Virus record (IMG/VR): IMGVR_UViG_3300010883_000676 | Coordinates: 1-20,351 of that record | Direction: 5' to 3' (one strand) | DNA length: 20,351 nt | DNA from: a virus | Part shown: positions 3,437 through 19,430 of the stretch, piece by piece | Layout of the letters: each line of letters begins with the position of its first letter | Numbering within the stretch: the stretch's first letter is position 1 | The notes under the pieces: model-generated | Seen by the model: only the letters and a program-made list of their open reading frames with translations | What the model was told of the DNA's origin: nothing | Database searches by the model: none | Position numbers and translations under genes: made by a program

Positions 3437-3874
3437 ATGAGCAAAAAAATTATCTGTAGTGGTGCAATCTTTTATACCCTAGAAACTAAACGCTTCCTAT
3501 TTGTACGTAGGGCTAATACCAAACGAGATAATGTTTGGGGATTAGTTGGCGGAACGACTGAAGATAAAGAAACACCGTGGGAAGGGTTACAAAGAGAAAT
3601 TAAAGAAGAAATTGGTAACATTCCTGAAATTAAAAAAACTATTCCACTGGAAACATTCGTAAGTAATGATGCAGGATTCTTGTTTCACACGTACTTGTGC
3701 GTAATCGAAAAAGAGTTTCTTCCAATACTTAATAGAGAACACGACGGATACGCCTGGGTTAGTTTTAATAAATGGCCTAAGCCTTTACACTTTGGATTAA
3801 AAAATACGCTCGAAAGTAAAATTAACATACGAAAGTTAGAAACACTCTTTGAAGTGATTAACTTAATTAATTAG
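3437..3874 (+). CDS. Nudix hydrolase
   Basis: A 145-residue member of the Nudix family, which cleaves nucleoside diphosphates linked to another moiety in a Mg2+-dependent reaction. The Nudix box occupies residues 39-61: G39, E45, then REIKEEIG at 53-60. This fits the GX5EX7REUXEEXGU pattern except that the last hydrophobic position is N61, with I62 next. The upstream strand ICSGAIFYTLETKRFLFVRR and VWGLVGG are typical of the fold. The substrate cannot be told from sequence; possibilities are oxidised nucleotides, NADH, sugar nucleotides or capped RNA. It lies 14 bases after the gp15-like gene with no clear Shine-Dalgarno sequence (only AAAGAT), so it probably rides on the structural transcript. 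Confidence 0.88.
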   Translation: MSKKIICSGAIFYTLETKRFLFVRRANTKRDNVWGLVGGTTEDKETPWEGLQREIKEEIGNIPEIKKTIPLETFVSNDAGFLFHTYLCVIEKEFLPILNREHDGYAWVSFNKWPKPLHFGLKNTLESKINIRKLETLFEVINLIN

Positions 3875-3882
3875 GTATTAAA

Positions 3883-4269
3883 ATGAACGATAATGTAACA
3901 AAGACAGAATTTGGATACGAAGTTTTATGGGCCAATACTGAACACTATAGTAGTCGAATACTAGTGTTTGATCATATTGGATCTAAGACTAACATGAGCT
4001 TTACTAAAGAAACTACTAAGTCTTGGTTTGTTAATGCTGGTGAACTTAGAATAAGATGGATTGATACTAACACCGGCAAGTTATACGAAAATACATTACG
4101 TGAGGGTTCTGTATTCCATGTAACTCCGCTAATGCCAGTTAGTTTAGAATGTCTGTATGCCGGAAGTGCTATTGCTGAAACAGCAACAAAACATATTCCT
4201 GAAGATGTTTATCATATAATTCCTGCAGATAATATCAAGGCAAGCGACGATGAACAATCTGAAGTTTAG
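3883..4269 (+). CDS. Cupin-fold protein lacking metal ligands
   Basis: A 128-residue single-domain beta-barrel protein of the RmlC-like cupin type, similar to small cupins often carried by marine T4-like phages. Visible fold markers are FGYEVLWANTEHYSSRILVF, then SWFVNAGELRIRW in the first cupin motif region and EGSVFHVTPLMPVSLECL in the second. The His/Glu metal ligands of both canonical motifs are absent: HxH is replaced by residues in TNMSFTKE, and the motif-2 His by Ser. It may therefore bind a sugar or sugar nucleotide without a metal, or be structural. It starts 8 bases after the Nudix stop with TAGGT ahead of it, and its last 20 bases overlap the next gene. The fold assignment is fairly firm; the function is unknown. 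Confidence 0.6.
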   Translation: MNDNVTKTEFGYEVLWANTEHYSSRILVFDHIGSKTNMSFTKETTKSWFVNAGELRIRWIDTNTGKLYENTLREGSVFHVTPLMPVSLECLYAGSAIAETATKHIPEDVYHIIPADNIKASDDEQSEV

Positions 4270-4504
4270 TGATCTACCACAGTACCAAAAAGATTTAAAA
4301 TACTTTACTGCAAAACTGTCAACTATAACTAACCCTAGTCTTAAAACAGAGTGCAATAATTTACTTAAACAAATGTCAGAACATGCATTGTTAATAGATG
4401 CAAGTCATGATTTTGATCCAAGGTTAATTGAAGAAAACAGAATTAAAATTATTGAGATACGCAAGCAATTAACTAGCGTAGTTAACGATTTACAACGAAC
4501 TTAA
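4250..4504 (+). CDS. Small helical protein, unknown
   Basis: An 84-residue predicted all-helical, highly charged protein, with amphipathic stretches KDLKYFTAKLSTI and IEENRIKIIEIRKQLTSVV. I recognise no family. It starts inside the end of the cupin gene (20-base overlap, different frame), with AAGG at 4237-4240 nine bases before ATG 4250, a good translational signal that argues for a real gene. It is the last gene of the rightward block, and its final 15 bases overlap the end of the oppositely transcribed fibre gene. Its size and position suggest a small accessory or chaperone-like protein, but this is a guess. Confidence 0.6.
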   Translation: MNNLKFSDLPQYQKDLKYFTAKLSTITNPSLKTECNNLLKQMSEHALLIDASHDFDPRLIEENRIKIIEIRKQLTSVVNDLQRT

Positions 4505-6085
4505 TCTTTTAACAGTAAATGCTCCAACCATTGCCGAATGTAGTGTACATTGATATGCAAATGTTCCACTAGTAGTTTCAGGTATTCTCCAATACAATGT
4601 TCCAGTATCTTTACCTTGTGCATCACTATCAGCACTTACTGTTCCATCAATACCAACGTGTAATAAATTTGTAGTAAGATTGTTTAAAGTACCATCTTGT
4701 ATTACAAACGGATGTCCGCCTGTACCCAATAAGTCAAATCCGTATGTATGTCCAGATATAAGGTATACTGTTGGGTTATTGCCTGCATAATGTGGTTCAA
4801 AATTATATGCTAAGTTGCCAACATTATCTACTTGAAATGTTGTTGCTGTACCTTCAAATATTCTATCAACAGTTAAAAAGTTTGCATCATTAACATCAGT
4901 TAACGCAGCAAATGTAGTAACACCCGAAGCTCCGTTATATGCAATAGAAACTGAATCAGTTGACGAGTCTGTCGTTACTGTTATTCCGGTGCCACCAGCA
5001 ATAGTTAATGTATCCGTTGTTGTATCTGCGCCTATTGTTTGCTGACCAGCAACAGCAACATTACTAAATGCATTTTGATTAACTTCACCAGATGATGCAG
5101 CAACGTCTTGGAAGCTAAATCCGCCTACTCCGTTAGTTGTTAGTACTTGGTTTACAGTTCCGTCAGTGATACTTAAATCTGTTAACGTAGTTGGAATACT
5201 TGCAGATGTAGCTGCATCAGTAATTCCGTATCCTGATAACGTTGTTGGTTTAGATGTTAAATTACTAAATGCGCCAGCAAAGCTATCAGTAATGCCGTAA
5301 CCTGCTAGTGTAGTTGGCTTGCCTGTTAAACTAGCAAATGTCTGTGCAGGAATACTTGTAAGGAATGTGCTTGTATCAGGTGGAGTGTATCTAAAAACAC
5401 CGGTAGTGTTATCGTAAGTAATTGCTCCGTCACCACTTGCCGCTAGTTCATTGCCTATGCTTAGACCAGTTAGTGAAAGAACACTAGGTGTATTTGATAA
5501 GTTGTTATAGTTTAAGTAATATGATCCATCTTGTCCGTCAAGAGTATCTGCATCAGTACCGCCACCACCTGTAGTAGCATCAGTTCCAGGAGCCCATTTA
5601 GCACCGTCCCATTTTAATACACTACCTGTACTTGGGGGTGATGTTGTTGTGTCAACATCTGACAAAAAGTCTACAGTAAATGCTGCTAAGTTAATTTCTA
5701 TGTTATCAGTATCTGTAGCGTTCTGGGTAGTTATATGTGTACCACCTAAAATATCTACATTACTTGTAGCAGACGCTGCTGTTAATGTACCATCGTCTGT
5801 GCCTATAGTTGCAAACAAGTTTGGATTAGATGCTGCACCAGTGTAATTAAGAGTAACTGTTTTGCCAGCAACACTAGAAGTAATGTCAGTGCCGCCTGCG
5901 ATTGTTATTGTATCAGTTGCAATAGTTGCTGTTGCACTTCCTGAATCGCCGGCTACTGTTTTAAATAATGCAACACCATCTGCACCGTCAGCGATGTTCC
6001 AAACTGACCCGTCCCACTTCCAAGTGGTTGTTCCGTCTGTGTACGTGTCGTCTATGTTAGCTGATACTGGAAAATTTAAAGCCAT
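4490..6085 (-). CDS. Modular fibre protein with C-terminal cupredoxin-like domain
   Basis: A 531-residue virion fibre-type protein. Residues 1-30 form an attachment-like module (LNFPVSANIDDTYTDG, WKWDGSVWNI). Low-complexity Thr/Asp/Gly beta repeats follow. Residues 250-290 hold two copies of a phage-fibre repeat, L-T-G/S-KPTTL-A/S-GYGITD. Residues 335-386 repeat a module also found in the 7693-9006 fibre. Residues about 427-524 look like a cupredoxin: GHPFVIQ with H458, then TLYWRIP and YQCTLHSAMVG, giving C513, H516 and M519, an apparent type-1 copper set with C-x2-H-x2-M spacing. ATG 6085 has AAGGA upstream and a late promoter motif at 6101-6112. The 3' end overlaps the convergent gene. It could bind copper at the virion surface, or use the fold only for adhesion. 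Confidence 0.75.
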   Translation of the reverse strand: MALNFPVSANIDDTYTDGTTTWKWDGSVWNIADGADGVALFKTVAGDSGSATATIATDTITIAGGTDITSSVAGKTVTLNYTGAASNPNLFATIGTDDGTLTAASATSNVDILGGTHITTQNATDTDNIEINLAAFTVDFLSDVDTTTSPPSTGSVLKWDGAKWAPGTDATTGGGGTDADTLDGQDGSYYLNYNNLSNTPSVLSLTGLSIGNELAASGDGAITYDNTTGVFRYTPPDTSTFLTSIPAQTFASLTGKPTTLAGYGITDSFAGAFSNLTSKPTTLSGYGITDAATSASIPTTLTDLSITDGTVNQVLTTNGVGGFSFQDVAASSGEVNQNAFSNVAVAGQQTIGADTTTDTLTIAGGTGITVTTDSSTDSVSIAYNGASGVTTFAALTDVNDANFLTVDRIFEGTATTFQVDNVGNLAYNFEPHYAGNNPTVYLISGHTYGFDLLGTGGHPFVIQDGTLNNLTTNLLHVGIDGTVSADSDAQGKDTGTLYWRIPETTSGTFAYQCTLHSAMVGAFTVKRLSSL

Positions 6086-6100
6086 TGTATAGTTCCTTTT

Positions 6101-6112
6101 GTATATTTATCG
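6101..6112 (-). promoter_or_regulatory. T4-type late promoter for cupredoxin-like fibre gene
   Basis: The minus strand reads CGATAAATATAC, matching the late consensus in seven of eight positions. The TAA stop codon of the upstream protease gene (6109-6107) lies inside the motif. Predicted start is near 6098, just ahead of the AAGGA ribosome-binding site for ATG 6085, the same compact layout as at 801-810. Confidence 0.6.
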
Positions 6113-7693
6113 TAATGTCGGTCCAACATTCCGTATGGTTAGTGGACCTGTAAAACTCATTGGGTTGTACGATGCAAACTTAGAAAATAGTATGTTTGGT
6201 TCTGAACCCATTAAGCTCTGATTAAGATTCTCATAATCAGTAGATGAGCTAGTATTGTATACTACACTTTTTGCTTCGTTAATAATATCAGCTTTCATTG
6301 GCCCTGGGCGTTTAGTAGGAACTGATTGCAACTTTAATGCAATAAGTCCTGCTACTTGTGGTGCTGCCATAGACGTTCCGCTAATATTCATAATTTTAAA
6401 ATTTGCATCATCTGGGTAATCAATTGTAGTATATGATGCATCACCTATATTACTTGCCGCACTAACTACTCCACCGCCCGGTGCCCAAATATTTACTCCT
6501 GGACCTCTAGTAGAACTAGTTGCAGTCTTGTCATAAAACTGACCGCCTGATGATTGTACACTACTGTCTATATTACCTACCATTAATGCATTTTCACTAA
6601 ATGGCGAACTGCCTCTATGATAGTTATAAGTTACCCCGCCAAAGACAGTAGTATTATTGTAGTCGGCTCCGTTTATTACATCAGCCTTCATAGGAGTATT
6701 ACCAGCGGCAATAACAACATGAATACCTGCATCTATCATATCTTCAATTTCAGCATCAACTGATCCTACACGAATTGGTATTCTAACTCCTGCAGCAATA
6801 ACTGCTGTTGGAATTCCAACAGCTGCCCAAAGAACATATCTGTCAGTGTAAGTAGACCCCCAAGTCCAAGCTGTTCCTCTATAGTTTCCGCTTGTTGGGT
6901 TGCCGCCTTGGTCTACTCCGTATCCCCAACTCATATTAACTACTGTAGGACGAGAACCTGCTTTAGCAGCGTGCCATAACCTAATCGAGTCAAAGGAAGA
7001 AGCAAGAGGAATACCAGTACTATCAGTACCTGTTAGTGTTTCTAATCCTTCTAATTTTTGAGAATATATTCTTGCGCCTTTTGCCCACCCGTAAGTTTTA
7101 CCAGCGGCAATACCAGCAACGTGTGTTCCGTGGCCGTCTGCATCTCTATAATGATTTGCACTCTGTGTTCCGGATATTCCACTTGCTGTGTACCAATTTA
7201 TTTGTTGTACTCTACTATTGCCAGCAGCATCATTAAATTCTGGATGGTCTGCTTGTATACCCGAGTCTTGTATAACTACATCAACACCGGTGCCGTCAAG
7301 AGCATAATCGTAATCTCCAGTTAGTGTAGTTTGAAAGCCAAACGCAGAGTTGTCAGTAGCTGTACATCGTCTTAGTCCCCAATTTACATAGTCACTACTA
7401 AGATTTGAGCCTCTATAAAATGTTCCTGTTTGTCTAGAATTAAGACCTATGCTAATATCGTCTCTTTGATCAGCGGGTATTTCTACACAAAATACTCTTG
7501 GATCTTCAGATAGTGCTGTTGCTTCGTCATCAGTTAACATCCAGTGTGTCATACGCTTAGAGCCAATACGAGCATTTGCTACATCTACACTTCTATTTGG
7601 TATGGGACCGCTTCCTGAGGATGCTGATAACTCAGCATCAAACTCTTCTAAATTTATTCCACGGTTAACAACAACAACATACTCTTTTTCCAT
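6107..7693 (-). CDS. Subtilisin-like serine protease (S8 family)
   Basis: A 528-residue protease with a complete subtilase active site: D143 in QDSG, H188 in DGHGTHVAG, oxyanion N332 in IAAGN, and S441 in SGTSMAAPQVAG. Residues 1-75 resemble an I9-type propeptide, with EYVVVVNRG near the start and DDEATALSEDPRVFCVE at its end; such propeptides fold the enzyme and are removed by self-cleavage. The catalytic domain spans about 130-460, and a C-terminal tail ends in a fibre-like PMSFTGPLTIRN segment. No signal peptide is seen, so it probably stays in the infected cell or on the particle. Its ATG overlaps the stop of the upstream fibre gene (TAATG), which implies coupled translation. It may mature fibre proteins or act on the host surface as part of the virion. 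The family call is firm; the role is inferred. Confidence 0.92.
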   Translation of the reverse strand: MEKEYVVVVNRGINLEEFDAELSASSGSGPIPNRSVDVANARIGSKRMTHWMLTDDEATALSEDPRVFCVEIPADQRDDISIGLNSRQTGTFYRGSNLSSDYVNWGLRRCTATDNSAFGFQTTLTGDYDYALDGTGVDVVIQDSGIQADHPEFNDAAGNSRVQQINWYTASGISGTQSANHYRDADGHGTHVAGIAAGKTYGWAKGARIYSQKLEGLETLTGTDSTGIPLASSFDSIRLWHAAKAGSRPTVVNMSWGYGVDQGGNPTSGNYRGTAWTWGSTYTDRYVLWAAVGIPTAVIAAGVRIPIRVGSVDAEIEDMIDAGIHVVIAAGNTPMKADVINGADYNNTTVFGGVTYNYHRGSSPFSENALMVGNIDSSVQSSGGQFYDKTATSSTRGPGVNIWAPGGGVVSAASNIGDASYTTIDYPDDANFKIMNISGTSMAAPQVAGLIALKLQSVPTKRPGPMKADIINEAKSVVYNTSSSTDYENLNQSLMGSEPNILFSKFASYNPMSFTGPLTIRNVGPTLR

Positions 7694-9027: not shown

Positions 9028-9036
9028 GTATTTATC
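9028..9036 (-). promoter_or_regulatory. T4-type late promoter for fibre-protease genes
   Basis: The minus strand reads GATAAATAC, 22 bases upstream of ATG 9006, with AAAGGAG in between. It lies just after the end of the halogenase operon (stop at 9045) and resets expression from the sigma-70-driven cassette to late structural genes. Confidence 0.65.
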
Positions 9037-9044
9037 TGCATACA

Positions 9045-9491
9045 CTAGGTTCGTTCATTACGTTCATCTAACTCTGGGTCAGAGTCGTCTTCAATTGGCG
9101 TGTTTAGAACATCGTATATATTGCCAGTCGGCATAACAAACTCTTGTATGCAATCAACATGCATCAGTCTAGGCTCATATCCTGGCATTACAAGGAAACT
9201 AATATGATGAATTTCTTCCTTTGGACCTTTTTTATATTCTTCGATAGATACCGGCTCTTCTATTAAAGGAGCACGATGACTATTTCGTGTTGCAACAAGA
9301 TGTTGCTTTTCTCCATCATCGTCTATATACACAATAATAACATCATCATACTCTAATAACTTAGTAAGCATAGCTTGTGTTCGTAAACGGTCACGTTGAA
9401 ACTTTCGCATTGTATACGAGTCTTTAACTTTTTTAGGATGAACTTTAAATATTGTCATCCCGTTATCTGTGGCAAATTCTTCAATAGCCAT
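9045..9491 (-). CDS. Unknown protein, last gene of the tailoring operon
   Basis: A 148-residue soluble, acidic protein that I do not recognise. The N-terminal half is basic and helical (HPKKVKDSYTMRKFQRDRLR), followed by a beta-strand pair around VIIVYIDDDGEKQHLVATR. A middle region contains HHISFLVMPGYEPRLMHVDC, and the last 15 residues are very acidic (DDSDPELDE). Its ATG overlaps the stop of the 66-residue gene upstream (TAATG), so it is translationally coupled to the halogenase operon. No catalytic motif is apparent. Its position suggests an accessory role in the cassette, but it could equally be an independent phage gene carried at the end of the transcript. Confidence 0.7.
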   Translation of the reverse strand: MAIEEFATDNGMTIFKVHPKKVKDSYTMRKFQRDRLRTQAMLTKLLEYDDVIIVYIDDDGEKQHLVATRNSHRAPLIEEPVSIEEYKKGPKEEIHHISFLVMPGYEPRLMHVDCIQEFVMPTGNIYDVLNTPIEDDSDPELDERNERT

Positions 9492-9691
9492 TATTTTTTC
9501 TCCATTAGTGTTGCTAGTTTTTTAATCTTATCACTAGCATAAGTTTTACAATAGCGTGGAGCAAACATATGTACTATTAAAGCAATTTCTGCTTTTTTAA
9601 GTTCTACTAATAAGTTAAACGCGAACTTAAAATGTTGCCATCTTGACATACCTGCTTCTTCCATATGTATTTTACATTCTTTACTAAACAT
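9491..9691 (-). CDS. Small unknown protein in tailoring operon
   Basis: A 66-residue, basic, mostly helical protein with one Trp (residue 18, in MSRWQHFKF) and two Cys. I chose ATG 9691 because it overlaps the upstream stop as TGATG; an in-frame TTG at 9694 would add one residue. The stop in turn overlaps the next start as TAATG. No family is recognised. The middle segment (FAFNLLVELKKAEIALIVHMF) is amphipathic or weakly hydrophobic and not clearly a membrane helix. It may be a small partner or adaptor of the enzymes. It could also be a peptide substrate, but no leader/core division is visible. Confidence 0.65.
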   Translation of the reverse strand: MFSKECKIHMEEAGMSRWQHFKFAFNLLVELKKAEIALIVHMFAPRYCKTYASDKIKKLATLMEKK

Positions 9692-10431
9692 CAACGACCC
9701 TTTCCAAAGTGCTTATTGTATATATCCTGTACTAAGTTACGTCGAATCTTAAATGTAAAATTCATAATAAATCTTTTCTTTTTAAGCCAAAGCTCGTCGT
9801 GCTTATTTTTATCTCGTACTACTAACTCAAATTGCTGTTCAGATATTGGTATAAGTTGTGCTAACGGTGTGCCTGCCTTTAATAGGTATTCACCTTTAGG
9901 AATATTATAAAATGCTTGAACATTAAGCTCAGTACTTACACTAGGATCTAATATTCCGATACTACTATCAAGTTCAAAACTATCTGGATACGCAATTGGT
10001 ATCATAAGAAACTTAACACCTTTTGGTGCAATTACATTCCAAGGAGTATTAAACTTAATCAATGGGGTCATGCTCCATGGTCTAACTGGCATTAATGTTT
10101 CAACTCCGGTTTCTTGTTTACTAAGAATCTCTTTACCTTCTGCTAAATCATGCATATCAGAAGTAGGAACTGTGAATTTAAAATCTTTACCATCGCCCAT
10201 TGTTTCAATTAACACATCATGCCACATTGGTACAATATATCCGTGTCTGTTTAAGTCAAAGATTCCAGGGCATTGTGCAATGTGATCCATTCTTCCTTTT
10301 GCAGTTTTAGAAGCGTTTTTAAAATCGCCCATTGCTCGTTTTTGCCAATTTGTAATAAATTTACTTGCTGGTATAATCGGACATGCTTCTGCTACTCCGG
10401 CAATTTCTGAGAAGAATTCTATTTTTTTCAT
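9691..10431 (-). CDS. DUF6065-like protein
   Basis: A 246-residue soluble protein that resembles the uncharacterised DUF6065 family. The markers are CPGIFDLNRHGYIVPMWHDV, then the aromatic block RPWSMTPLIKFNTPWNV, GVKFLMIPIAYPD and, near the end, YLLKAGTPLAQLIPI. The fold looks mainly beta, and the conserved Trp/Pro/His surface suggests ligand binding, but no reaction is known to me. It overlaps the 2OG oxygenase start by ATGA upstream and the 66-residue gene by TGATG downstream, so it is part of the halogenase operon. The C-terminus is strongly basic (KKKRFIMNFTFKIRRN). The family call is from memory of the motif order and was not searched. Confidence 0.6.
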   Translation of the reverse strand: MKKIEFFSEIAGVAEACPIIPASKFITNWQKRAMGDFKNASKTAKGRMDHIAQCPGIFDLNRHGYIVPMWHDVLIETMGDGKDFKFTVPTSDMHDLAEGKEILSKQETGVETLMPVRPWSMTPLIKFNTPWNVIAPKGVKFLMIPIAYPDSFELDSSIGILDPSVSTELNVQAFYNIPKGEYLLKAGTPLAQLIPISEQQFELVVRDKNKHDELWLKKKRFIMNFTFKIRRNLVQDIYNKHFGKGR

Positions 10432-11006
10432 TTCTGTATCCTGATATCAAACGCTATATTAATTCTATTTTTGCTTGCATGTTTATTTGTTTCAACTTCG
10501 TGTGGCATCCAACTAGGCCACATTATTAAATCTTTGTCAGCTGGTGTAAAATAAAAATCTCTAGTAAATGGCGACATACTATCACAATCGCCTAATATGT
10601 TTGCTGGATTAACGAGCCTTAAATCACCAGTTCCTGAGCCTTTTACGTAATATACTCCAGAAAAGATTGCGTCTTTATGACTGTGTAATACATTACGACT
10701 TCCTGGTTTATTTACATTAGACCAATAAGTTAAAATATATTTTTTATCATTAGTCATACCTTTTGCAAACACCGAATCCATGTCACTGTAGTACTCAACA
10801 TTTTCTTTAACTAAATTCATAATTGCGTCTGTTAACCATTCTGTGTTTTTGTACACATGTGACGATCTCCAACAATCTAAATTAGTAGACGAAGTAGTAG
10901 GCTCTGAATCATATTGATTATTAATGTCATCAAGTAATACCGATACTTGCGATTGCGTACCTACATTTTCTTTATGAAAAAAGTATGCGTGTAGAATAGG
11001 CGTCAT
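10428..11006 (-). CDS. 2OG-Fe(II) oxygenase (phage type) B
   Basis: A 192-residue non-haem iron, 2-oxoglutarate-dependent oxygenase of the small phage-type family (2OG-FeII_Oxy_5 in Pfam terms). These enzymes hydroxylate or otherwise oxidise C-H bonds. The double-stranded beta-helix core shows NVLHSHKDAIFSGVYYV (H108, H110, D112), the distal iron ligand H169 in WPSWMPHEVETN, and the 2OG-binding arginine R181 in NRINIAFDI. It is coupled by ATGA overlaps to the halogenase upstream and the DUF6065-like gene downstream. It is only distantly similar to the second oxygenase at 12528-13115, so the two probably act on different positions or substrates. The substrate is unknown. Confidence 0.85.
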   Translation of the reverse strand: MTPILHAYFFHKENVGTQSQVSVLLDDINNQYDSEPTTSSTNLDCWRSSHVYKNTEWLTDAIMNLVKENVEYYSDMDSVFAKGMTNDKKYILTYWSNVNKPGSRNVLHSHKDAIFSGVYYVKGSGTGDLRLVNPANILGDCDSMSPFTRDFYFTPADKDLIMWPSWMPHEVETNKHASKNRINIAFDIRIQK

Positions 11007-12517
11007 CGATTATACCATTCTTTTAAGTAATCGTAATGATTTGGAAACACTTTTTCAGCAAGTTCTACTCTAGCTGTATGTGAGTTGAGAAAATACTCAG
11101 AATATTCTTTTTGTTTATCAGATAGTTTAGACTCTACTCCTTCATATGCTCCGCCTGCATGAAGCATACTAAACCACTGTGTTACACAAAACATGCTGCT
11201 AGGTGTTAAGTGTAAGAATCTTTTAGGGTGTGGTAAAAATGCGTCAAGTATTTCTTTAACAAATCTTGGACGATCTTCTATCTTTTGAGTTCGTATCTCT
11301 TTCCAAAACTCAGTATCGTCTTTAGTACTAAAGTAATAATGTGACCAAACAAACGTAAATATTTCTGCTGACATTTCACCAAAGCCTTGATTCATCATTT
11401 GCCTTGACTGTTCAGACCATATATTATTTTGAGCATTTAATAAGTCTGACAGACTGTGTACTAATGCTGTAGTAAATGTAATTCCTGTTGCTTCTAATGG
11501 TTCTACAAATCCTGCACTAAGTCCTACCCCAATAACATTTTTTATAGCAATTTGTGTATGAGCTCCGCATTTCATTTTTAAGTGTCTAGCAGGAGCAACA
11601 TACTCTCCTAGATGTTTTCTTAATTCTGCTTCGGCATCTTCATCGCTGATGTGTTTACTTGAATACACGTATCCATTGCCTATCCTAGTAAAGATAGGAA
11701 TAGTAAAGCACCAACCTGCGTCCATTGTAGTTGCTTTAGTATAAGGATGACATTCTTTTTGCGGGTCAGTATACTGAGTTTGTATTGTTACAGCTCGATC
11801 TGTTAATAACCCTAAATCATTAAACGATTGCCATTTAGCACCCATTTCTTTTTCAAGTAATAAACTAGCAAATCCAGTACAATCTAAAAATAAATCACCT
11901 GTGTATTTTTCGCCTGCATCATTAATAAGATACTCAATTCCGTTTTCATTTTGTGTTATTTTAGTAATGTTAGTATCAACATATGTTATATCGTTAATAA
12001 TTAATTCTTTGATAATTTTAATAATTTGATGCGCTGAAAAGTGTACTGAACCGAATCCACTTGGTCCCATACCAGGATTAACATCTAAATAATCTTCTAG
12101 CTTTAACGACACATTACCTTTAGCAAGTCTGTAAGCAGGATGCCATTTTGCTAATTCAGCATAAGGCTTGTCTATAAAGTAATCAGACGTAAATAAGTTT
12201 TCTGCAACAAGACTATTTGATGCTGTATCATTGTCAACAAAATAAGGTTCATCATTCCAGCCAACACATTCAACTCCGTACTTAAATGATGCATCAGCGG
12301 CATTCATCCAAACATGTGGAGGTATTCCACAACGCCATAAAAACTCTGCTGTTAGCGGCTGTGTTCCTTCACCAACGCCAATTGGGCCTGCACTTGAATC
12401 TTCAATCAACGTAATATTGCAAGGTGAGTTTAACATATTTCGCAAATATGCCGCTGCTAACCATCCGCTTGTGCCGCCTCCGAATATTACAATGTTGTTT
12501 GCTTTAGTTAGTATCAT
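11003..12517 (-). CDS. Flavin-dependent tryptophan halogenase homologue
   Basis: A 504-residue flavoprotein of the tryptophan halogenase family (PrnA-like). Such enzymes use FADH2, O2 and chloride or bromide to form hypohalous acid, which is passed to a lysine and then to an aromatic substrate. Visible motifs are the FAD-binding GGGTSGW (13-19), GVGEGTQP (48-55), the catalytic lysine K79 in ADASFKYGV, and EPLEATG (339-345) with the conserved glutamate. The usual WxWxIP motif reads WCFTIP (269-274), with Phe for the second Trp. The length matches the family. It needs a flavin reductase, and none is in the window, so the host would supply it. AAGG lies upstream of ATG 12517 and the stop overlaps the next start as ATGA. 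Related genes are annotated in some marine T4-like phages, where substrates are unknown. Confidence 0.9.
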   Translation of the reverse strand: MILTKANNIVIFGGGTSGWLAAAYLRNMLNSPCNITLIEDSSAGPIGVGEGTQPLTAEFLWRCGIPPHVWMNAADASFKYGVECVGWNDEPYFVDNDTASNSLVAENLFTSDYFIDKPYAELAKWHPAYRLAKGNVSLKLEDYLDVNPGMGPSGFGSVHFSAHQIIKIIKELIINDITYVDTNITKITQNENGIEYLINDAGEKYTGDLFLDCTGFASLLLEKEMGAKWQSFNDLGLLTDRAVTIQTQYTDPQKECHPYTKATTMDAGWCFTIPIFTRIGNGYVYSSKHISDEDAEAELRKHLGEYVAPARHLKMKCGAHTQIAIKNVIGVGLSAGFVEPLEATGITFTTALVHSLSDLLNAQNNIWSEQSRQMMNQGFGEMSAEIFTFVWSHYYFSTKDDTEFWKEIRTQKIEDRPRFVKEILDAFLPHPKRFLHLTPSSMFCVTQWFSMLHAGGAYEGVESKLSDKQKEYSEYFLNSHTARVELAEKVFPNHYDYLKEWYNR

Positions 12518-12527
12518 ATTACATGCC

Positions 12528-13115
12528 TTAATTATATAAAAATTCTATGTTAAAAGACAAAGAAACTCTTTCTTTATCTGTTCTGTTAGGTTCTACTTTG
12601 TGCAATAGCCAGTTAGGAAATAGTAGTATCATTCCTTTTTCAGGAGGAATTTTAACAATATTGCTGTACCTATCACATCTATGTGGGAAAGAAATAACAA
12701 AAGGATTAGGACTTTTAAAAGATATCATTCCACACGTTGAATCAGCTTTATGATAGTATACACCACTAAGTGCATTAGGCTGATATCCGTGTTCGTGTAA
12801 CCCAATATTTTGATCTCTACTAAATGTGTTTAACCACGACTCTTGTATTCTCAGATCATGTTTTACATTTTGATCTGCTTCTTTAAGATACTTGCGTGTA
12901 TGATTAAAAATTGCTTGCTGTGTTGCAATTAATTTATGATCCTCTATTGCATTCATTTGTGTGTCTGGTATGAATGTAGTAGGCGCTGTATCGTTGTCAG
13001 GCTGCCAATCATTCTTAAACGCTAATTTAGGAATTACATTATCAATTTCATCACTAACTCTGTGATCATCAATAACATCAATGTATATAGGTGTGCTAAA
13101 AAAGTTATGTATCAT
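12528..13115 (-). CDS. 2OG-Fe(II) oxygenase (phage type) A
   Basis: A 195-residue 2-oxoglutarate/Fe(II) oxygenase of the same broad phage family as the 10428-11006 product. It opens with the characteristic FFSTPIYIDVI strand. The core has NIGLHEHGYQPNALSGVYYH (H107, H109), then KGMILLFPNWLLHKVEPN with distal ligand H172, and ERVSLSFNIEF with R183 for the 2OG carboxylate. The aligned HxH of both paralogues suggests that this pattern supplies the proximal iron ligand in place of a strict HxD. The start overlaps the upstream fusion gene as ATGA, and a 10-base gap precedes the halogenase. The likely role is oxidation of the same substrate class as the halogenase, or of a protein side chain. The substrate cannot be told. 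Confidence 0.85.
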   Translation of the reverse strand: MIHNFFSTPIYIDVIDDHRVSDEIDNVIPKLAFKNDWQPDNDTAPTTFIPDTQMNAIEDHKLIATQQAIFNHTRKYLKEADQNVKHDLRIQESWLNTFSRDQNIGLHEHGYQPNALSGVYYHKADSTCGMISFKSPNPFVISFPHRCDRYSNIVKIPPEKGMILLFPNWLLHKVEPNRTDKERVSLSFNIEFLYN

Positions 13116-14782
13116 GTTCTAACAACCAATATGTAAAGTCCGTTCCACCATTCATTTGGATTCTCTTCTGAGTTTAATAAAATCTTTTCGTATGTTACTA
13201 AGCCTTCGCACTCATTAATTGCTTCTCTTGCGCCTTCAACTACTCCTGCCCAGTTAGCATCATCAAATATAAGAACTACTTCATTTGAAAAAGTATTCCA
13301 GTAATGTTTAACTGCACTTGCTGTACTTTCTGCATCATGCGGGCCATCATAAAAGAACATTTGTATTTGCTTGGTCCAAGGAGTTGTATCAACTGATAGC
13401 ATGTCTGCATTAATAACAGTTAAGTCTCCTGAGCTAGGTTGATACTTTTCAACGTTTGCTTTAAATGCTTCAAAGTTATTTGCTGGAAGATCTTTTCCTG
13501 TTTGCGGTTGTATTTGCTCTATCCAATTGTCAACAGCAATAGCATTTATTGGGTTATCTTTAATAACTGAACACAATGTAGCACCTAAGTACGATCCTAT
13601 TTCTAAATAACTGCCAACACCTTTTGCAATTCCGTTTAATACTGTTTGCACTCTTGGACTTGTTAAGCCAGGGACATCAACTTTTAATTTAGGAACTCCG
13701 CTATCAGCAATAACTGTTGCTACATGTTTAATAATATCACTATGGTCTAAGTCTGATTTTGCTTTGTAAATTTTATCGCAATACTGACATTCCCAGCAAT
13801 CAAACTTACAGTTTTTTATCTTGTCGCGCCAGATGTTAATAGGCTTGTCTTTTAGATTAGTTTCTTCAAGATACGTTTCAAACCCAGCAACAAGAATTTC
13901 GTCACCGTTGTCCCACTTACGAATTATTTCCATAGTTTCGTATAGTCTTGGTATTGCTTCACGGCCGTGCATTTTAAATACATCAATGCCTAAATCATTT
14001 ATAAACTCTTCCCAGTCTTCTCTCCACGGTGGTAGATCTGCTGTCTTTAAATGTACTGACGGATCTAGTACGTCCCACTTAGGACAACTAACTCTACTAA
14101 TAGGATCATTAAAGTATTGCGGTGTTGGATCTTGACGAGTATTATTAAACTCAAAGTGTTCAACCATCATTGGACAGTTACCTAAACACCCTTCATTTGC
14201 TAATAAGCTATACTTAATATCTTTACCTAAGTTCTTTTTAATCCAAACTTTAGCCTCTAATAAACGTAACAGCACATCTCTATTACGCATTAAGTCTCTG
14301 TCAAGATTAATATAGTCGAACCCTGCTTTTGCAAGATTAACTATTTCACTTGGTGTGCTTACATCTCTTAAAATTGTATTTTTAACGTGTATTTCAGGAA
14401 ATGCTTTTTTAATTTGTCCGGTAGCCATCCAATGTGTATGTGGAATAGTTACTGTTTTTACGCCAGCATCGTACAGCGGCTTAAAATTTCTAATTAGTGT
14501 ATCTAAGTTAGATTGTGTTGGAGGTACTGTAGTATTATTAAATGTAGCACTAATAGGAATACCTATTTCTTTTTGAATGTATAATGCTGTATTAATTGCA
14601 TACGCATAGTCTTCGTTGTGCAAGAAAATGTCGCCCATAGCATCTTGTGCAAAGGGCGGTATTCTACTTGTAAAGTATACATCGTATATAAGATGTTTAT
14701 TCTGTTTTAAAAACTCAAAAAACTCTTGAAACTGTTCAGGATTAAGTTTCGGATTTAATGGTACACTGAATATTTTCTGCAT
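13112..14782 (-). CDS. U32-peptidase-like Fe-S domain fused to class I methyltransferase
   Basis: A 556-residue two-domain protein, first gene of the tailoring operon. Residues 1-340 resemble the U32 peptidase/UbiU-UbiV group, a barrel fold that in UbiU/V carries a 4Fe-4S cluster: VYFTSRIPP, YDAGVKTVTIPHTHW, INLDRDL, LLANEGCLGNCPMM (C199, C203), RVSCPKW (C233) and a cysteine cluster C325, C329, C332, C335. No CxxxCxxC radical-SAM motif is present. Residues about 370-556 form an SAM methyltransferase of the Methyltransf_24 type: SYLEIGSYLGATLC (motif I, 392-404), AVDNW, NADML, FFYDGPHD (477-483) and IFDDANW. The ATG at 14782 lies downstream of a sigma-70 promoter with only GTGAG as ribosome-binding site. 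The stop overlaps the oxygenase start as ATGA. The substrate is unknown. Confidence 0.75.
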   Translation of the reverse strand: MQKIFSVPLNPKLNPEQFQEFFEFLKQNKHLIYDVYFTSRIPPFAQDAMGDIFLHNEDYAYAINTALYIQKEIGIPISATFNNTTVPPTQSNLDTLIRNFKPLYDAGVKTVTIPHTHWMATGQIKKAFPEIHVKNTILRDVSTPSEIVNLAKAGFDYINLDRDLMRNRDVLLRLLEAKVWIKKNLGKDIKYSLLANEGCLGNCPMMVEHFEFNNTRQDPTPQYFNDPISRVSCPKWDVLDPSVHLKTADLPPWREDWEEFINDLGIDVFKMHGREAIPRLYETMEIIRKWDNGDEILVAGFETYLEETNLKDKPINIWRDKIKNCKFDCWECQYCDKIYKAKSDLDHSDIIKHVATVIADSGVPKLKVDVPGLTSPRVQTVLNGIAKGVGSYLEIGSYLGATLCSVIKDNPINAIAVDNWIEQIQPQTGKDLPANNFEAFKANVEKYQPSSGDLTVINADMLSVDTTPWTKQIQMFFYDGPHDAESTASAVKHYWNTFSNEVVLIFDDANWAGVVEGAREAINECEGLVTYEKILLNSEENPNEWWNGLYILVVRT

Positions 14783-14793
14783 TTATGTCTCAC

Positions 14794-14824
14794 TAGTATA
14801 GCTATAATTTATACTTAGTATAGC
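14794..14824. repeat. Direct and inverted repeats at the cassette start site (candidate operator)
   Basis: TAGTATAGC occurs at 14794-14802 and again at 14816-14824, 22 bp apart, about two helical turns. The upstream copy contains the -10 element, and the other lies just past the predicted start. In addition, GCTATA (14801-14806) and TATAGC (14819-14824) form an inverted repeat centred near the start site. This would suit a dimeric repressor, but chance in AT-rich DNA is possible. Confidence 0.35.
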
Positions 14825-14845
14825 ATCTAATGCTCTACCTGTCAA
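14817..14845 (-). promoter_or_regulatory. Host sigma-70 promoter of the tailoring operon
   Basis: On the minus strand: TTGACA (14845-14840), a 17-base spacer, then TATACT (14822-14817) preceded by TGC, an extended -10. The -35 is perfect and the -10 matches five of six. Transcription should begin near 14810, giving a leader of about 28 bases before ATG 14782. The promoter starts 18 bases after the stop of the upstream unknown gene. It lacks the late motif and indicates early expression by host RNA polymerase. Confidence 0.8.
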
Positions 14846-14862
14846 CATGAATTATAGTCGTT

Positions 14863-15390
14863 TTAGGCGATGTCCCATTCAACTTTAAAGGTAGGTTTAC
14901 GAGGAGTCATATTAGTTGATGCAAAATTACAATCAAAATAATCATACATTATACGCTGACCTTGATCTAATGTTTCCATTCCGCTTATCATCTGTCTTAA
15001 AGCATTAACGTATCCATTATTAGCGTCTAGATGATTTTGTATATGTAGTTCCATTACTGTCTTCATAAACTGGATACCATTGTTAGTATCTTGTTCGGTT
15101 AAGTCGTAGTAAAACTTAGGACCTTCGGCTGTATGTGTGTCGCCAGTATCCTGAACAATTTGTTCATATACATTTGTCATTTTTGCTACTGGAATTTCAC
15201 CGTCTCTAGCTGTAACAAACTTATACGACTTTGCTACAAACTCACCAACAACCTTACCATGTAACCAATCAACAAATGTTCCGTCAGGTGCTGTACTAAC
15301 TGAATAGTTCCAAAAATCCCCTATGAGTTCCATTCCTGGTTGCCATCGAGGATCGTTACCTGCTATAGTTTCATGTATTATATATATCAT
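14863..15390 (-). CDS. Unknown protein, partner of upstream gene
   Basis: A 175-residue acidic, soluble protein without a recognised family. It has a mixed N-terminal half (FWNYSVSTAPDGTFVDWLHG, GEFVAKSYKF) and a helical middle (QFMKTVMELHIQNHLDANNG and following). It starts inside the end of the 293-residue gene (20-base overlap in another frame), so the pair is translationally coupled and probably acts together. Both follow the fibre cluster and precede the sigma-70-driven operon. A baseplate, fibre-assembly or virion accessory role is possible from position only. Confidence 0.7.
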   Translation of the reverse strand: MIYIIHETIAGNDPRWQPGMELIGDFWNYSVSTAPDGTFVDWLHGKVVGEFVAKSYKFVTARDGEIPVAKMTNVYEQIVQDTGDTHTAEGPKFYYDLTEQDTNNGIQFMKTVMELHIQNHLDANNGYVNALRQMISGMETLDQGQRIMYDYFDCNFASTNMTPRKPTFKVEWDIA

Positions 15391-16252
15391 AGTCGTTATC
15401 GCTTTCGCTGATGCCGCCTGGGTTACTTGCAGCTATTTGTGCTGGATGCTCCGGAGTTGGAATTGTTAAATCTTTATTACCTACTGCTAAGCCTCCAAGT
15501 TTTAACTTTTCGTCTACTTCAAGCTGAAGACTTGATTGTACTTGCTGTAACTGTGCTCCGTAACTAAGAGCAAGCCCTAGAGTTTCGTTTTGTTGCTCAG
15601 GTGCCATACTTAAAATAGCATCCATATTACCTGTGTTTATTCTACCATAAAACACTAAGTCAGCAGCAGATTGTTTTGCTAATCTGTTAGTCCAGTATTC
15701 CGCTTCATAAACATCTTCTTCTTCTGTATTGAGAATGTCCATATAGGTTCTGCCACTACCGTCTGGTAGCATAGCTTCTTCTGATTTCATAAACTCGTCA
15801 ATAAGATCGATAAGATTTTGACGTTCTAAATAGTATTCACGTAATTTCTTTTCAGCTTGTGCTAAGTTTTTAGATTCGTTTGCTGCTTCAATTTGAGCTA
15901 ATCTTTTATCAAATTGATCAGTTGTATTTTCCGCAATCCAAAGATTTCTATCTCTTTCAACTTCCCACTTACTGTTATCGTACAATACTTGTTGTAGGGT
16001 TTCTTCTCTACTTCTCAGTTCTAACATCCACTGACGTAGTTTAGCAAAAGGGGTAATTTGTGTTTGGCCGACAAACCATTTAATTTTAAACTTTGGATTT
16101 GACCACTGCTTGTTGTACGCACTGGAAAGAATATCTTTATCTTTTTCTGATAATTGTGTTACATCTGTAACCAACGGCATTTTTGGTGCATCACCAAAAT
16201 ACTGTTTTTGTCTATCCATTCTACTAGTACTATCTAAACTGTTTTCTGTCAT
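15371..16252 (-). CDS. Unknown coiled-coil-containing protein
   Basis: A 293-residue hydrophilic protein. Residues 70-160 are a long charged helical region (KLRQWMLELRSREETLQQVL, AEKKLREYYLERQNLIDLID), probably coiled coil. The C-terminal third is Gln/Leu-rich (EQQNETLGLALSYGAQLQQV) and ends in a Gly/Ser/Asp tail. I recognise no family. AGGAG lies seven bases before ATG 16252, and a late-type motif sits at 16294-16302, so it is expressed with virion genes. The last 20 bases overlap the next gene. A structural or assembly role (scaffold, fibre chaperone, baseplate) is plausible but unproven. Confidence 0.7.
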   Translation of the reverse strand: MTENSLDSTSRMDRQKQYFGDAPKMPLVTDVTQLSEKDKDILSSAYNKQWSNPKFKIKWFVGQTQITPFAKLRQWMLELRSREETLQQVLYDNSKWEVERDRNLWIAENTTDQFDKRLAQIEAANESKNLAQAEKKLREYYLERQNLIDLIDEFMKSEEAMLPDGSGRTYMDILNTEEEDVYEAEYWTNRLAKQSAADLVFYGRINTGNMDAILSMAPEQQNETLGLALSYGAQLQQVQSSLQLEVDEKLKLGGLAVGNKDLTIPTPEHPAQIAASNPGGISESDNDYDIYNT

Positions 16253-16306: not shown

Positions 16307-17398
16307 TTAGCCGCGCCATGCTCCGAAACCTGAACTACGTCCTGCTGGGCCTTTTGGCTCCATAGTAGATCCGCCAGTTGTTTGTGTTTCGCTTGCATAT
16401 ATAAACTTTGCAGATAAATTGTTTTGTAAGCCGTTGTATTGTCCTAACATATACGATTTATCATTACCTAATGTGTAGTTTTCTTCACCACAGTTAGTGT
16501 ATGCTTTGTTCATAAAACTTCCGCTTGTTGTTGTATCTGTAAGATGATTTGTTCTTCTATAAGTATAACCGCCTGCCCAACTACCGTTGTTACCAATATA
16601 CCCGTGTACTAATTTAGAACTAATATTCTTTTGTTGGAAGTGATCGCCTGGTTGTGTTCCTGCTCTTGCAAGTAGTGTTTCGCTTGCAAACGTAAAGTTC
16701 CAGCAATATATTGTACCACTATAACCTTCACCCATGTACCAAGTACCATAATTCTCTGCACTAGTACCCCAAGGACCGCCTGCTGTTGATCCGCCTTGAC
16801 CAGCTGTTGTATTTAACCCAGGTCTTGTCTGCATCATTTCGGTAACAGTGTCAAATCTTTCAACACTTGTTGCGCCACCTCCAGTGATCCAAGTTGATAA
16901 ATGCTCTTTATATACAGCACCCATGTGTCCTCGACTAACACCCATATTTGAACCACCTTGGGTAGTAAATGCTGAATCTGTACGCATACTAAATCCGGTA
17001 GTTATGTTACCACTAGCATTGTGTGCGTTAGTTGTTCCAAAATAGAAAGCTCTGTCTAATCCAACTGCGCCTGACTTATAGTTGCCTGATCTTGCTAGTA
17101 AGTCTCCTAGGTCAACTGATGTGTCATTAGAGTGATCAGTCCTGTTTACATTTCTCCAAACAGCTGAACTTTTATAGCCGCCCATAACATATCCAGCAAC
17201 AACAATTTGTCTAGTATACCACGGTATAGTAAAGTCTTGCCAGTCCGAATTATGTAATGTGGAATAATATTCAATAGTACTAGTATCAGTATTATATCGA
17301 AGTGACCCTTGAGTAGTACCGGAGCGTTGTGCTGAAGTGCCTACGGGTACTCTTAAATATCCGGTGGAGCTCAGTGATGTATTTTTTAACGTTGCCAT
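16307..17398 (-). CDS. Fibre protein with predicted kelch-like beta-propeller, copy 2
   Basis: A 363-residue virion fibre-type protein. Residues 1-47 are an attachment-like module (STGYLRVPVGTSAQR, LRYNTDTSTIEYY) shared with the next two genes on the right. The rest shows a recurring aromatic-x-x-Gly pattern at about 48-residue spacing: YVMGGY (70), YFGT (119), WITGGG (170), YMGEG (221), YIGNNG (267) and YMLGQYNG (316). This suggests a six-bladed beta-propeller. The C-terminal 95 residues (GNNGSW to GFGAW) are the part best conserved with the neighbouring paralogue, including YMLGQYNGLQNNLS. AAAGGAAA lies upstream of ATG 17398, and there are 15 bases after the paralogue's stop. It is probably a receptor-binding or decorating fibre. 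The propeller is inferred from spacing only. Confidence 0.7.
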   Translation of the reverse strand: MATLKNTSLSSTGYLRVPVGTSAQRSGTTQGSLRYNTDTSTIEYYSTLHNSDWQDFTIPWYTRQIVVAGYVMGGYKSSAVWRNVNRTDHSNDTSVDLGDLLARSGNYKSGAVGLDRAFYFGTTNAHNASGNITTGFSMRTDSAFTTQGGSNMGVSRGHMGAVYKEHLSTWITGGGATSVERFDTVTEMMQTRPGLNTTAGQGGSTAGGPWGTSAENYGTWYMGEGYSGTIYCWNFTFASETLLARAGTQPGDHFQQKNISSKLVHGYIGNNGSWAGGYTYRRTNHLTDTTTSGSFMNKAYTNCGEENYTLGNDKSYMLGQYNGLQNNLSAKFIYASETQTTGGSTMEPKGPAGRSSGFGAWRG

Positions 17399-17413
17399 TC
17401 TATATTATTTCCT

Positions 17414-18451
17414 TTAATTGGTCCAAGAGCATACCGCACTACTCATTCCTGCTTTACCTTTAGGCTCACCTGATGCTCCTAACTGGAAGCCTGAGTCTGT
17501 ATTATAATTCCATCTGTGCGAAAGATTGTTTTGTAGTCCGTTGTACTGTCCTAGCATATACTGATGATCTTGTCCCATTGTATAGTTTTCTTCACCACAG
17601 TTTCCAAGTGGTTTGTTTACAGTACCTGATGTACTGTTAGTTATCATATTAGTTTTACGGTATGTATAACCACCTTGATAACTGCCGTTATTACCTGCCC
17701 ATGCATAGTTGTGTTTACTTTGAATTGTCTTTTGCTGATGGTGATTACTTATTGTAGTACCACCTCTAGTTGATATAGTTCTTGTTGCAAACGTAAAGTT
17801 TCTATTATCGTTTGACGTGTAAATAATTCCGTAATTTTCGTGACTAGCACCCCAACAATCTGATGACGTATATGTAGGAGAAAGTGTACCTACAAGTGTT
17901 TTTGTTACCATGTTGTATTCTTCAATGTTAGCATTACCGCCACCTGACGTAAATGCAAATACATCTTCTTGGAATATACCGCCGAATCTAATATGACTAT
18001 ATGCCATATTACGTGAAATATCAGTAGCATTAGTTTCAGTACGCATATTATATGCAATAACATAGTTTGAACTTGCAGCATGTGCGTTAGCTGCTCCAAA
18101 TACATATGCATAGTCTTTACTACATGCGCCCCATTGATAGTTAAACGCTCGTTCAATACTACCGTCACCTAAGTTAATTGTTGTATCTGTTTGTGTGAAA
18201 CACTTGTTAACATTGTTCCAAACAACTGCACTTTTATATCCGCCAAGCACATATGCTGTAGTGATAATTGTTCTATGAGGAAATGCAACACTATTTTGTG
18301 CCCAAGCATACCCATCCCAATATTCTACAATACCTAAGTTGCTGTTTAATCTAACTGCACCTACAGTATTTGCTGGACGCTCTGCGCTAGTACCTATTGG
18401 AAGTCTTAAGTAACCTGTGTCATTAATATTTGTGTTTAGTAAATTTGCCAT
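17414..18451 (-). CDS. Fibre protein with predicted kelch-like beta-propeller, copy 1
   Basis: A 345-residue paralogue of the 16307-17398 product, a tandem duplicate since diverged. Residues 1-48 are the shared attachment module (DTGYLRLPIGTSAERP, VRLNSNLGIVEYW). Blade-like repeats start at YVLGGY (67), YVFGAA (116), FAFTSGGG (166), IIYTS (209), YAWAGNNG (249) and YMLGQYNG (298), with paired strands such as IAYNMRTETNATD, EYNMVTKTLVGT and NFTFATRTISTRG between them, as in kelch blades. NCGEENYTMG and GQYNGLQNNLS match the paralogue. ATG 18451 lies three bases after the upstream stop, with TTGGA as ribosome-binding site inside that gene's last codons. The role is probably host recognition. Confidence 0.7.
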   Translation of the reverse strand: MANLLNTNINDTGYLRLPIGTSAERPANTVGAVRLNSNLGIVEYWDGYAWAQNSVAFPHRTIITTAYVLGGYKSAVVWNNVNKCFTQTDTTINLGDGSIERAFNYQWGACSKDYAYVFGAANAHAASSNYVIAYNMRTETNATDISRNMAYSHIRFGGIFQEDVFAFTSGGGNANIEEYNMVTKTLVGTLSPTYTSSDCWGASHENYGIIYTSNDNRNFTFATRTISTRGGTTISNHHQQKTIQSKHNYAWAGNNGSYQGGYTYRKTNMITNSTSGTVNKPLGNCGEENYTMGQDHQYMLGQYNGLQNNLSHRWNYNTDSGFQLGASGEPKGKAGMSSAVCSWTN

Positions 18452-19420: not shown

Positions 19421-19430
19421 CTATTTATTT
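19421..19430 (-). promoter_or_regulatory. Candidate late promoter within end of S74 fibre gene
   Basis: The minus strand reads AAATAAATAG; AATAAATA matches seven of eight late-consensus positions. It covers the last codons and TAG stop of the upstream gene and lies 13 bases before GTG 19408. Because it codes for Asn-Lys-stop, the match may be partly fortuitous. Confidence 0.4.

Follow-up and report, generated by a model that had tools for sequence, protein, structure and literature searches.

A coupled halogenase, oxygenase and methyltransferase gene cassette among the tail-fibre genes of a T4-like marine phage

The IMG/VR virus record IMGVR_UViG_3300010883_000676 was analysed over positions 1 to 20,351, and this whole stretch of 20,351 nucleotides is referred to below as the window. 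It contains a cassette of seven genes, designated here A to G, on the minus strand at positions 9045-14782, in which successive open reading frames (ORFs) overlap or lie 10 bases apart. Genes A (13112-14782) and B (12528-13115) share 4 nucleotides in ATGA, a gap of 10 nucleotides separates B from C (11003-12517), and overlaps of 4 nucleotides join C to D (10428-11006) and D to E (9691-10431). The stop and start codons overlap as TGATG between E and F (9491-9694) and as TAATG between F and G (9045-9491). Seven coupled same-strand frames had been proposed in an initial annotation made from the DNA letters, and all of them were found in place with their overlaps and the single gap. The phage is T4-like and marine, and the cassette is embedded in its tail-fibre locus. 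Its upstream flank consists of P (tail fibre with an S74 chaperone), O, N, M (fibre-like), I and H, and the downstream flank of J (tail fibre), K (subtilase) and L (baseplate wedge/tail-fibre connector), with the gp15 tail-sheath stabiliser (1980-3422) and an Ad2 neck protein (25-798) farther from the cassette. The location amid virion structural genes, noted earlier, is thus confirmed by fibre genes on both flanks and by baseplate, sheath and neck genes downstream.

The product of C is a flavin-dependent halogenase of the tryptophan type with 504 amino acid residues. It matches the Trp_halogenase profile (PF04820) over residues 8-458 with E=7.1e-87 and 292.6 bits (cut-off 21), and contains the motifs GxGxxG (residues 13-18) and W-x-[WF]-x-I-P (residues 269-274, with F in the window) as well as K79 and E342. 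The residues G13, G15, G18 and K79 are present in 76/76 halogenase sequences and E342 in 71/76. Among solved halogenases, C matches tryptophan 5-halogenases, RebH, PrnA and VirX1. The full-length profile match and the complete set of catalytic motifs bear out the earlier assignment of C as a tryptophan-halogenase homologue. No flavin reductase was found by Pfam among the scanned ORFs of the window or in 17 related records; the reduced flavin adenine dinucleotide (FADH2) for C could come from the host. Some related loci carry at least two halogenase genes, including shorter divergent copies of about 400 residues, and one extra copy lies on the opposite strand near tail genes.

Genes B and D encode 2-oxoglutarate (2OG) and Fe(II) dependent oxygenases of 195 residues (PF13759/TIGR02466) and 192 residues (PF13759), respectively. 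The 2OG-FeII_Oxy_5 scores are 69.9 bits (E=3e-19) for B and 58.5 bits (E=9e-16) for D, with a cut-off of 27. The metal site HxH...H is invariant in B with 22 relatives and in D with 66 (H108xH110...H169), and the arginine ligand of 2OG is retained in 98-100% of the relatives of B and D, being invariant in the 22 of B. The same HxH site is found in PDB 2rg4 and 3bvc and is a trait of this family, unlike the classical HxD/E. Both oxygenases of the initial annotation therefore stand, with scores above the Pfam cut-off and conserved metal and 2OG ligands. DNA was also considered as a possible target of modification, but among the family matches of the cassette there was no pointer to a DNA-modifying oxygenase. 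Cyanophage genes annotated as DNA endonuclease V (phrog_274) give weak matches to the 2OG oxygenase profiles PF13640/PF13759 and appear to be misannotated; one of them lies directly after the A homologue in Syn33.

Protein A has 556 residues and is predicted with good confidence to be a fusion, with a (beta/alpha)8 barrel at approximately residues 1-345 and a class I S-adenosylmethionine methyltransferase at approximately residues 360-556 (AlphaFold model, predicted local distance difference test (pLDDT) 84). The Methyltransf_24 family was matched by 47/47 A members, the protein of the window scoring 35.2 bits where the cut-off is 26.3, and by Foldseek this domain resembles small-molecule O-methyltransferases. 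For the barrel, the U32 peptidase 5d88 was found at rank 8 (E 3.3e-6, TM-score 0.63 by target), and other barrels also score. The U32 profile PF01136 was absent among the families shown for the 47 A members at E≤10, and alignment of A to UbiU/UbiV by hhalign, using single sequences, was negative. Assignment of A to U32 by sequence was rejected for want of profile or hhalign support, and the likeness is one of fold only. Compared with the U32 family of peptidases and Fe-S hydroxylases, A has a barrel that resembles 5d88 and cysteines after a late barrel strand, but it differs in its extra CxxxCxxCxxC motif, its fused methyltransferase and the absence of a sequence-level match. Seven cysteines, C199, C203, C233, C325, C329, C332 and C335, are invariant in 47 A relatives, which suggests that A may bind an Fe-S cluster. 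The earlier description of A as a U32-like/methyltransferase fusion with an Fe-S-type domain is thus retained for the methyltransferase and, for U32, as a resemblance in fold; an Fe-S domain is plausible from the seven cysteines. The only cellular homologues of A are on three contigs from metagenome-assembled genomes, possibly of phage origin, and PF01136 was not found in the genome of one of the three. Profile searches for PDB relatives of A and E gave chance-level matches only.

Protein E (246 residues, phrog_7084) is a remote DUF6065 homologue with a predicted dUTPase-like fold. It does not match the DUF6065 Pfam profile (PF19541) at E≤10, while hhalign comparison with annotated DUF6065 proteins gave 95-96% with E-values of 1.9e-8 and 1.6e-9 over 202 columns. 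The earlier label 'DUF6065-like' is therefore appropriate for a remote homologue, not for a member of the Pfam family. The top Foldseek matches of E are all dUTPases, with a best E-value of 1.4e-3 and TM-scores by target of at most 0.71 for a model with pLDDT 72. The dUTPase profile (PF00692) was matched by only 1/13 E members, at E=0.23, and at the motif-3-like Asp162 the E family has either D or N. E apparently lacks the dUTPase catalytic motifs. F (67 residues, DUF6356) has few relatives by phmmer, the gene being found in four loci. G (148 residues) belongs to no family, and searches for its identity gave nothing convincing. A test for a cluster making a natural product or a ribosomally synthesised and post-translationally modified peptide found no core scaffold gene or precursor peptide among the Pfam-scanned ORFs; the sole short gene in the cassette is F.

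Conservation was assessed in related loci, taken as the 80 best of 306 IMG/VR matches to A, 78 of them with downstream sequence. The common gene order is [fibres]-I-H-A-(B)-C-D-E-G-[fibres]. Gene I (15371-16252, minus strand; 293 residues, phrog_1409) is a near-constant companion, being found upstream of A in 71/75 related loci, and the fast-evolving H (14863-15390, minus strand; 175 residues) lies between the two. After C, D was found in 65 of the 78 loci, E in 61 and G in 45. The halogenase, a 2OG oxygenase and E are all present in 57 loci, all absent in seven and partially present in 14. The ratio of nonsynonymous to synonymous substitution rates (dN/dS) against the two nearest relatives is 0.06-0.27 for the compared cassette genes and neighbours, and the cassette genes are under purifying selection. 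In the same comparison A, C and E are conserved at least as well as most fibre genes. The initial annotation had suggested searching phage genomes for conserved co-occurrence and order, and C indeed lies at most three genes downstream of A in 71/78 loci; together with the dN/dS values, this places the linkage of the cassette far beyond chance. The distances between pairs of loci are correlated among A, C, D, E, H, I and N, with r of 0.65-0.89, so that most of the linkage is inherited with the phage backbone, and the locus counts are not independent trials because the loci are related and were picked by closeness to A. psbA was looked for in 17 related records, of which several are long, and was not found. 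A cyanophage origin of the lineage of the window is therefore not supported, and these phages are probably not cyanophages.

Comparison with known phages indicates that the cassette is two older modules joined, namely I-A and C-D-E. The linkage within the second module is argued more strongly by phages outside the lineage of the window. One close counterpart is the VirX1 cluster of Syn10/Syn9 (Syn9 gp41-gp53), which shares the halogenase, the E homologue and 2OG oxygenases beside fibre genes. Syn9 has two halogenases, gp41 and gp42, together with the E homologue gp43 (hhalign 99.9% against E) and a number of 2OG oxygenases, all placed after genes for tail fibres and tail-fibre assembly. The full length of gp42 matches PDB 6qgm, which is VirX1, and the identity between gp42 and C is 31%. 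Compared with the window, the Syn9 cluster has two halogenases, the order C-C-E-2OG, a late promoter motif upstream and no A/I module at the site. The different gene order and the identity of 31% argue that the association of C, 2OG oxygenase and E outlived rearrangement. A layout like that of Syn9 occurs in S-RIM44, P-TIM40, P-RSM6, S-SZBM1 and S-CREM1, with halogenases and 2OG oxygenases in these and the E homologue in several, and in the Syn9-type phages the genes before the halogenases are tail-fibre, tail-fibre-assembly or collagen-like genes. The E homologue was found in 14 phage records, and a halogenase was present in 14/14 of them. No copy of A was seen at the site of the halogenase, E and 2OG genes in the cyanophages examined.

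The I-A pair is found with no halogenase in many cultured cyanophages, for example Syn33, and in 7/80 of the IMG/VR loci. In Syn33_044/045 and relatives, annotated merely as hypothetical proteins, a fusion about 44% identical to A adjoins an I homologue in the tail-fibre region, and a 2OG-like gene annotated 'denV' comes next, as a 2OG gene does in the window; unlike the window, this type of module has neither halogenase nor E. Homologues of A and of I were each found in 123 phage records, with an identical breakdown by name, and among the matches listed there was no overlap between phages with A and phages with a halogenase. Since A with I occurs apart from the halogenase, and the halogenase with E and 2OG oxygenases occurs apart from A, A belongs to a separate module, which the lineage of the window has joined to C-D-E. 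The initial annotation had considered the complete set as one pathway, a view that scattered and independently lost genes in related phages would contradict. Scattering of this kind is seen for A, not for C-D-E; the latter unit stands, and A is not a fixed part of it.

Two further systems can be compared with the window. In HTVC008M, a T4-like marine phage of Pelagibacter, a halogenase adjoins a 2OG oxygenase as in the window, but the pair lies between terminase subunit genes, away from the tail fibres, and no A or E was seen in the stretch examined. The bacterial comparison comprised five plasmid loci, whose halogenases also belong to PF04820, are 27-33% identical and are directly linked to a surface-protein gene; in 4/5 of them the homologue is directly downstream of a TonB receptor gene. 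These loci differ from the window in their glycan-uptake setting, and the five examples have no A, D or E partners.

The cassette and the fibre genes differ in the promoter-like motifs before them, the promoter calls being consensus matches and not mapped starts. The cyanophage late promoter has the consensus NATAAATA with the core ATAAATA (PMC2984593). In the related loci the density of ATAAATA in intergenic gaps is some 50 times that in coding sequence; among distinct upstream regions it is found before J in 94%, before L in 72% and before A in none. In the window a T4-type late promoter, GATAAATA, lies immediately upstream of J (9029-9036, minus strand), and there are further late sites (NATAAATA) before L (6104-6111), O (19422-19429) and the neck gene (802-809). 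No exact TATAAATA was found in the window, the form in use being the cyanophage NATAAATA. The gap between H and A instead contains a sigma70-type promoter, TTGACA-N17-TATACT with an extended TG (14817-14845, minus strand). Sites of this type matching at least 10/12 positions were found before A in 25% of relatives, compared with 2.9% in shuffles, and no other gene has a comparable excess. We infer from these motifs that host sigma70 RNA polymerase can transcribe the cassette and that transcription of the late type begins again at J. The cassette, probably co-transcribed, may thus be an early-type operon inside a late region. In Syn9, gp40, the gene just before the halogenases, is preceded by the late promoter motif.

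Because the cassette lies among tail-fibre genes, a virion protein ranks first among the targets named in the initial annotation, which were an aromatic metabolite or signal, a protein residue or a peptide. We tentatively propose, at somewhat less than even odds, that the cassette tailors the phage's own tail-fibre/adhesin apparatus. From what is known of these families, C would form hypohalous acid from FADH2 supplied by the host, O2 and halide, with K79 directing it to an aromatic carbon, and B and D would hydroxylate using 2-oxoglutarate and Fe(II). The methyltransferase of A would methylate, its Cys-rich barrel would probably add a redox or binding step, and E would bind or present the substrate. 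This substrate would be a Trp, Tyr or similar residue in the fibre apparatus, with M/N, I, H and J as candidates, and its modification would alter fibre folding or host-surface binding. M and N (16307-18451, minus strand; phrog_1417) encode Gly/Tyr-rich putative fibre proteins, and we infer that they are candidate targets. A similar neighbourhood is seen in the Synechococcus phage S-SRM01, where a single halogenase gene is flanked by long tail-fibre genes and by the gp37-gp38 adhesin tip gene, and in P-SSM2, where the halogenase neighbours tail-fibre assembly genes. The proposal also draws on the fibre company of the Syn9-type halogenases, the late promoter motif before Syn9 gp40, the tie of A to I, the intact catalytic motifs and the bacterial homologues behind TonB receptors, which are again surface proteins.

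Several observations weigh against fibre modification. We know of no such modified virion protein. The halogenase lies away from tail fibres in S-B64, S-MbCM6, S-H38 and HTVC008M. Across the loci A-C persists beside variable fibre genes (O, P, J, K and L), and this leaves only M/N, I and H as constant candidates. Adjacency to fibres may come in part from insertion into a permissive region, and the glycan uptake of the bacterial TonB loci leaves a reading by ligand equally open. Finally, the sigma70-type promoter before A hints at early expression, while the fibre genes are late, although read-through from a late promoter into the cassette is possible beside it.

That early-type promoter is also the starting point of the main competing explanation, that the cassette acts early in infection to produce or alter a small molecule, such as a halogenated aromatic host metabolite, signal or antibiotic. 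The best-studied flavin halogenases use free tryptophan or natural products, and VirX1 accepts many small aromatics in vitro (PMC8407142). The methyltransferase of A is like small-molecule O-methyltransferases, and antibiotic protection has been put forward as a speculation for cyanophage prnA (PMC2984593). The cassette has no scaffold-building, transport or reductase gene, however, its embedding among tail fibres persists across several lineages, and the Syn9 halogenase operon lies behind a late promoter motif. We consider a small-molecule product possible and the less probable of the two; the company of tail-fibre genes and the lack of a scaffold enzyme or flavin reductase favour the phage's own fibre apparatus.

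The early-type promoter would equally suit modification of a host protein or surface component (receptor, ribosome or RNA polymerase) for takeover or superinfection exclusion, and in bacteria the relatives are linked to TonB receptors of the outer membrane. In addition, 2OG oxygenases of the same broad fold include protein hydroxylases. A host target leaves the steady tail-fibre company and the I-A pairing unexplained, and it seems unlikely. Slightly less probable still is that independent accessory genes collected in a hypervariable region and do not act together. Such a gathering would account for the separate occurrence of A, C and the 2OG genes elsewhere, 2OG oxygenases being very common in such phages (PMC3037559), but not for C, 2OG oxygenase and E being mostly kept or lost jointly in the 78 loci, for the halogenase in every record with E, or for a linkage that survives altered gene order at about 31% identity.

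A more general form of the fibre proposal is that T4-like marine phages carry out multi-enzyme post-translational halogenation and hydroxylation, perhaps also methylation, of their own tail-fibre adhesin complex, and that this is the native role of orphan viral halogenases including VirX1, in parallel with the TonB-linked halogenases. This extension is more doubtful than the proposal for the cassette itself. Viral flavin halogenases have been known since the early cyanophage genomes, and VirX1 has been studied as a biocatalyst. The published roles are conjectures: protection from antibiotics for a phage halogenase (PMC2984593), and drawdown of 2OG for nitrogen signalling or DNA repair for phage 2OG oxygenases (PMC3037559). 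A review covering VirX1 describes in vitro chemistry and names no native substrate or associated pathway (PMC8407142). Our literature search found no paper on a coupled cassette or a tail-fibre role, which is weak evidence as it covered few subscription papers and no preprints; the enzyme kinds are already known and the coupled cassette appears undescribed. The recurrent partners and the linkage to fibre genes give the orphan viral halogenases a testable substrate hypothesis. If true, it would reveal a kind of virion chemistry not seen before and open another way of approaching marine phage adsorption, while virion proteins carrying no halogen would indicate a small-molecule or host target.

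Some minor features were noted downstream of the cassette. The subtilase K (Peptidase_S8, 6107-7693) lies inside the tail-fibre locus and adjoins the cassette; DUF6065 genes on Rhizobium and Agrobacterium plasmids likewise have S8 peptidase neighbours. The C-terminal stretch of L (4490-6085) shows, as judged by eye only, a copper-binding (cupredoxin-like) resemblance in HPF...CTLHSAMVG. On the plus strand after the gp15 gene (3437-4269), a Nudix hydrolase and a cupin-like protein are encoded.

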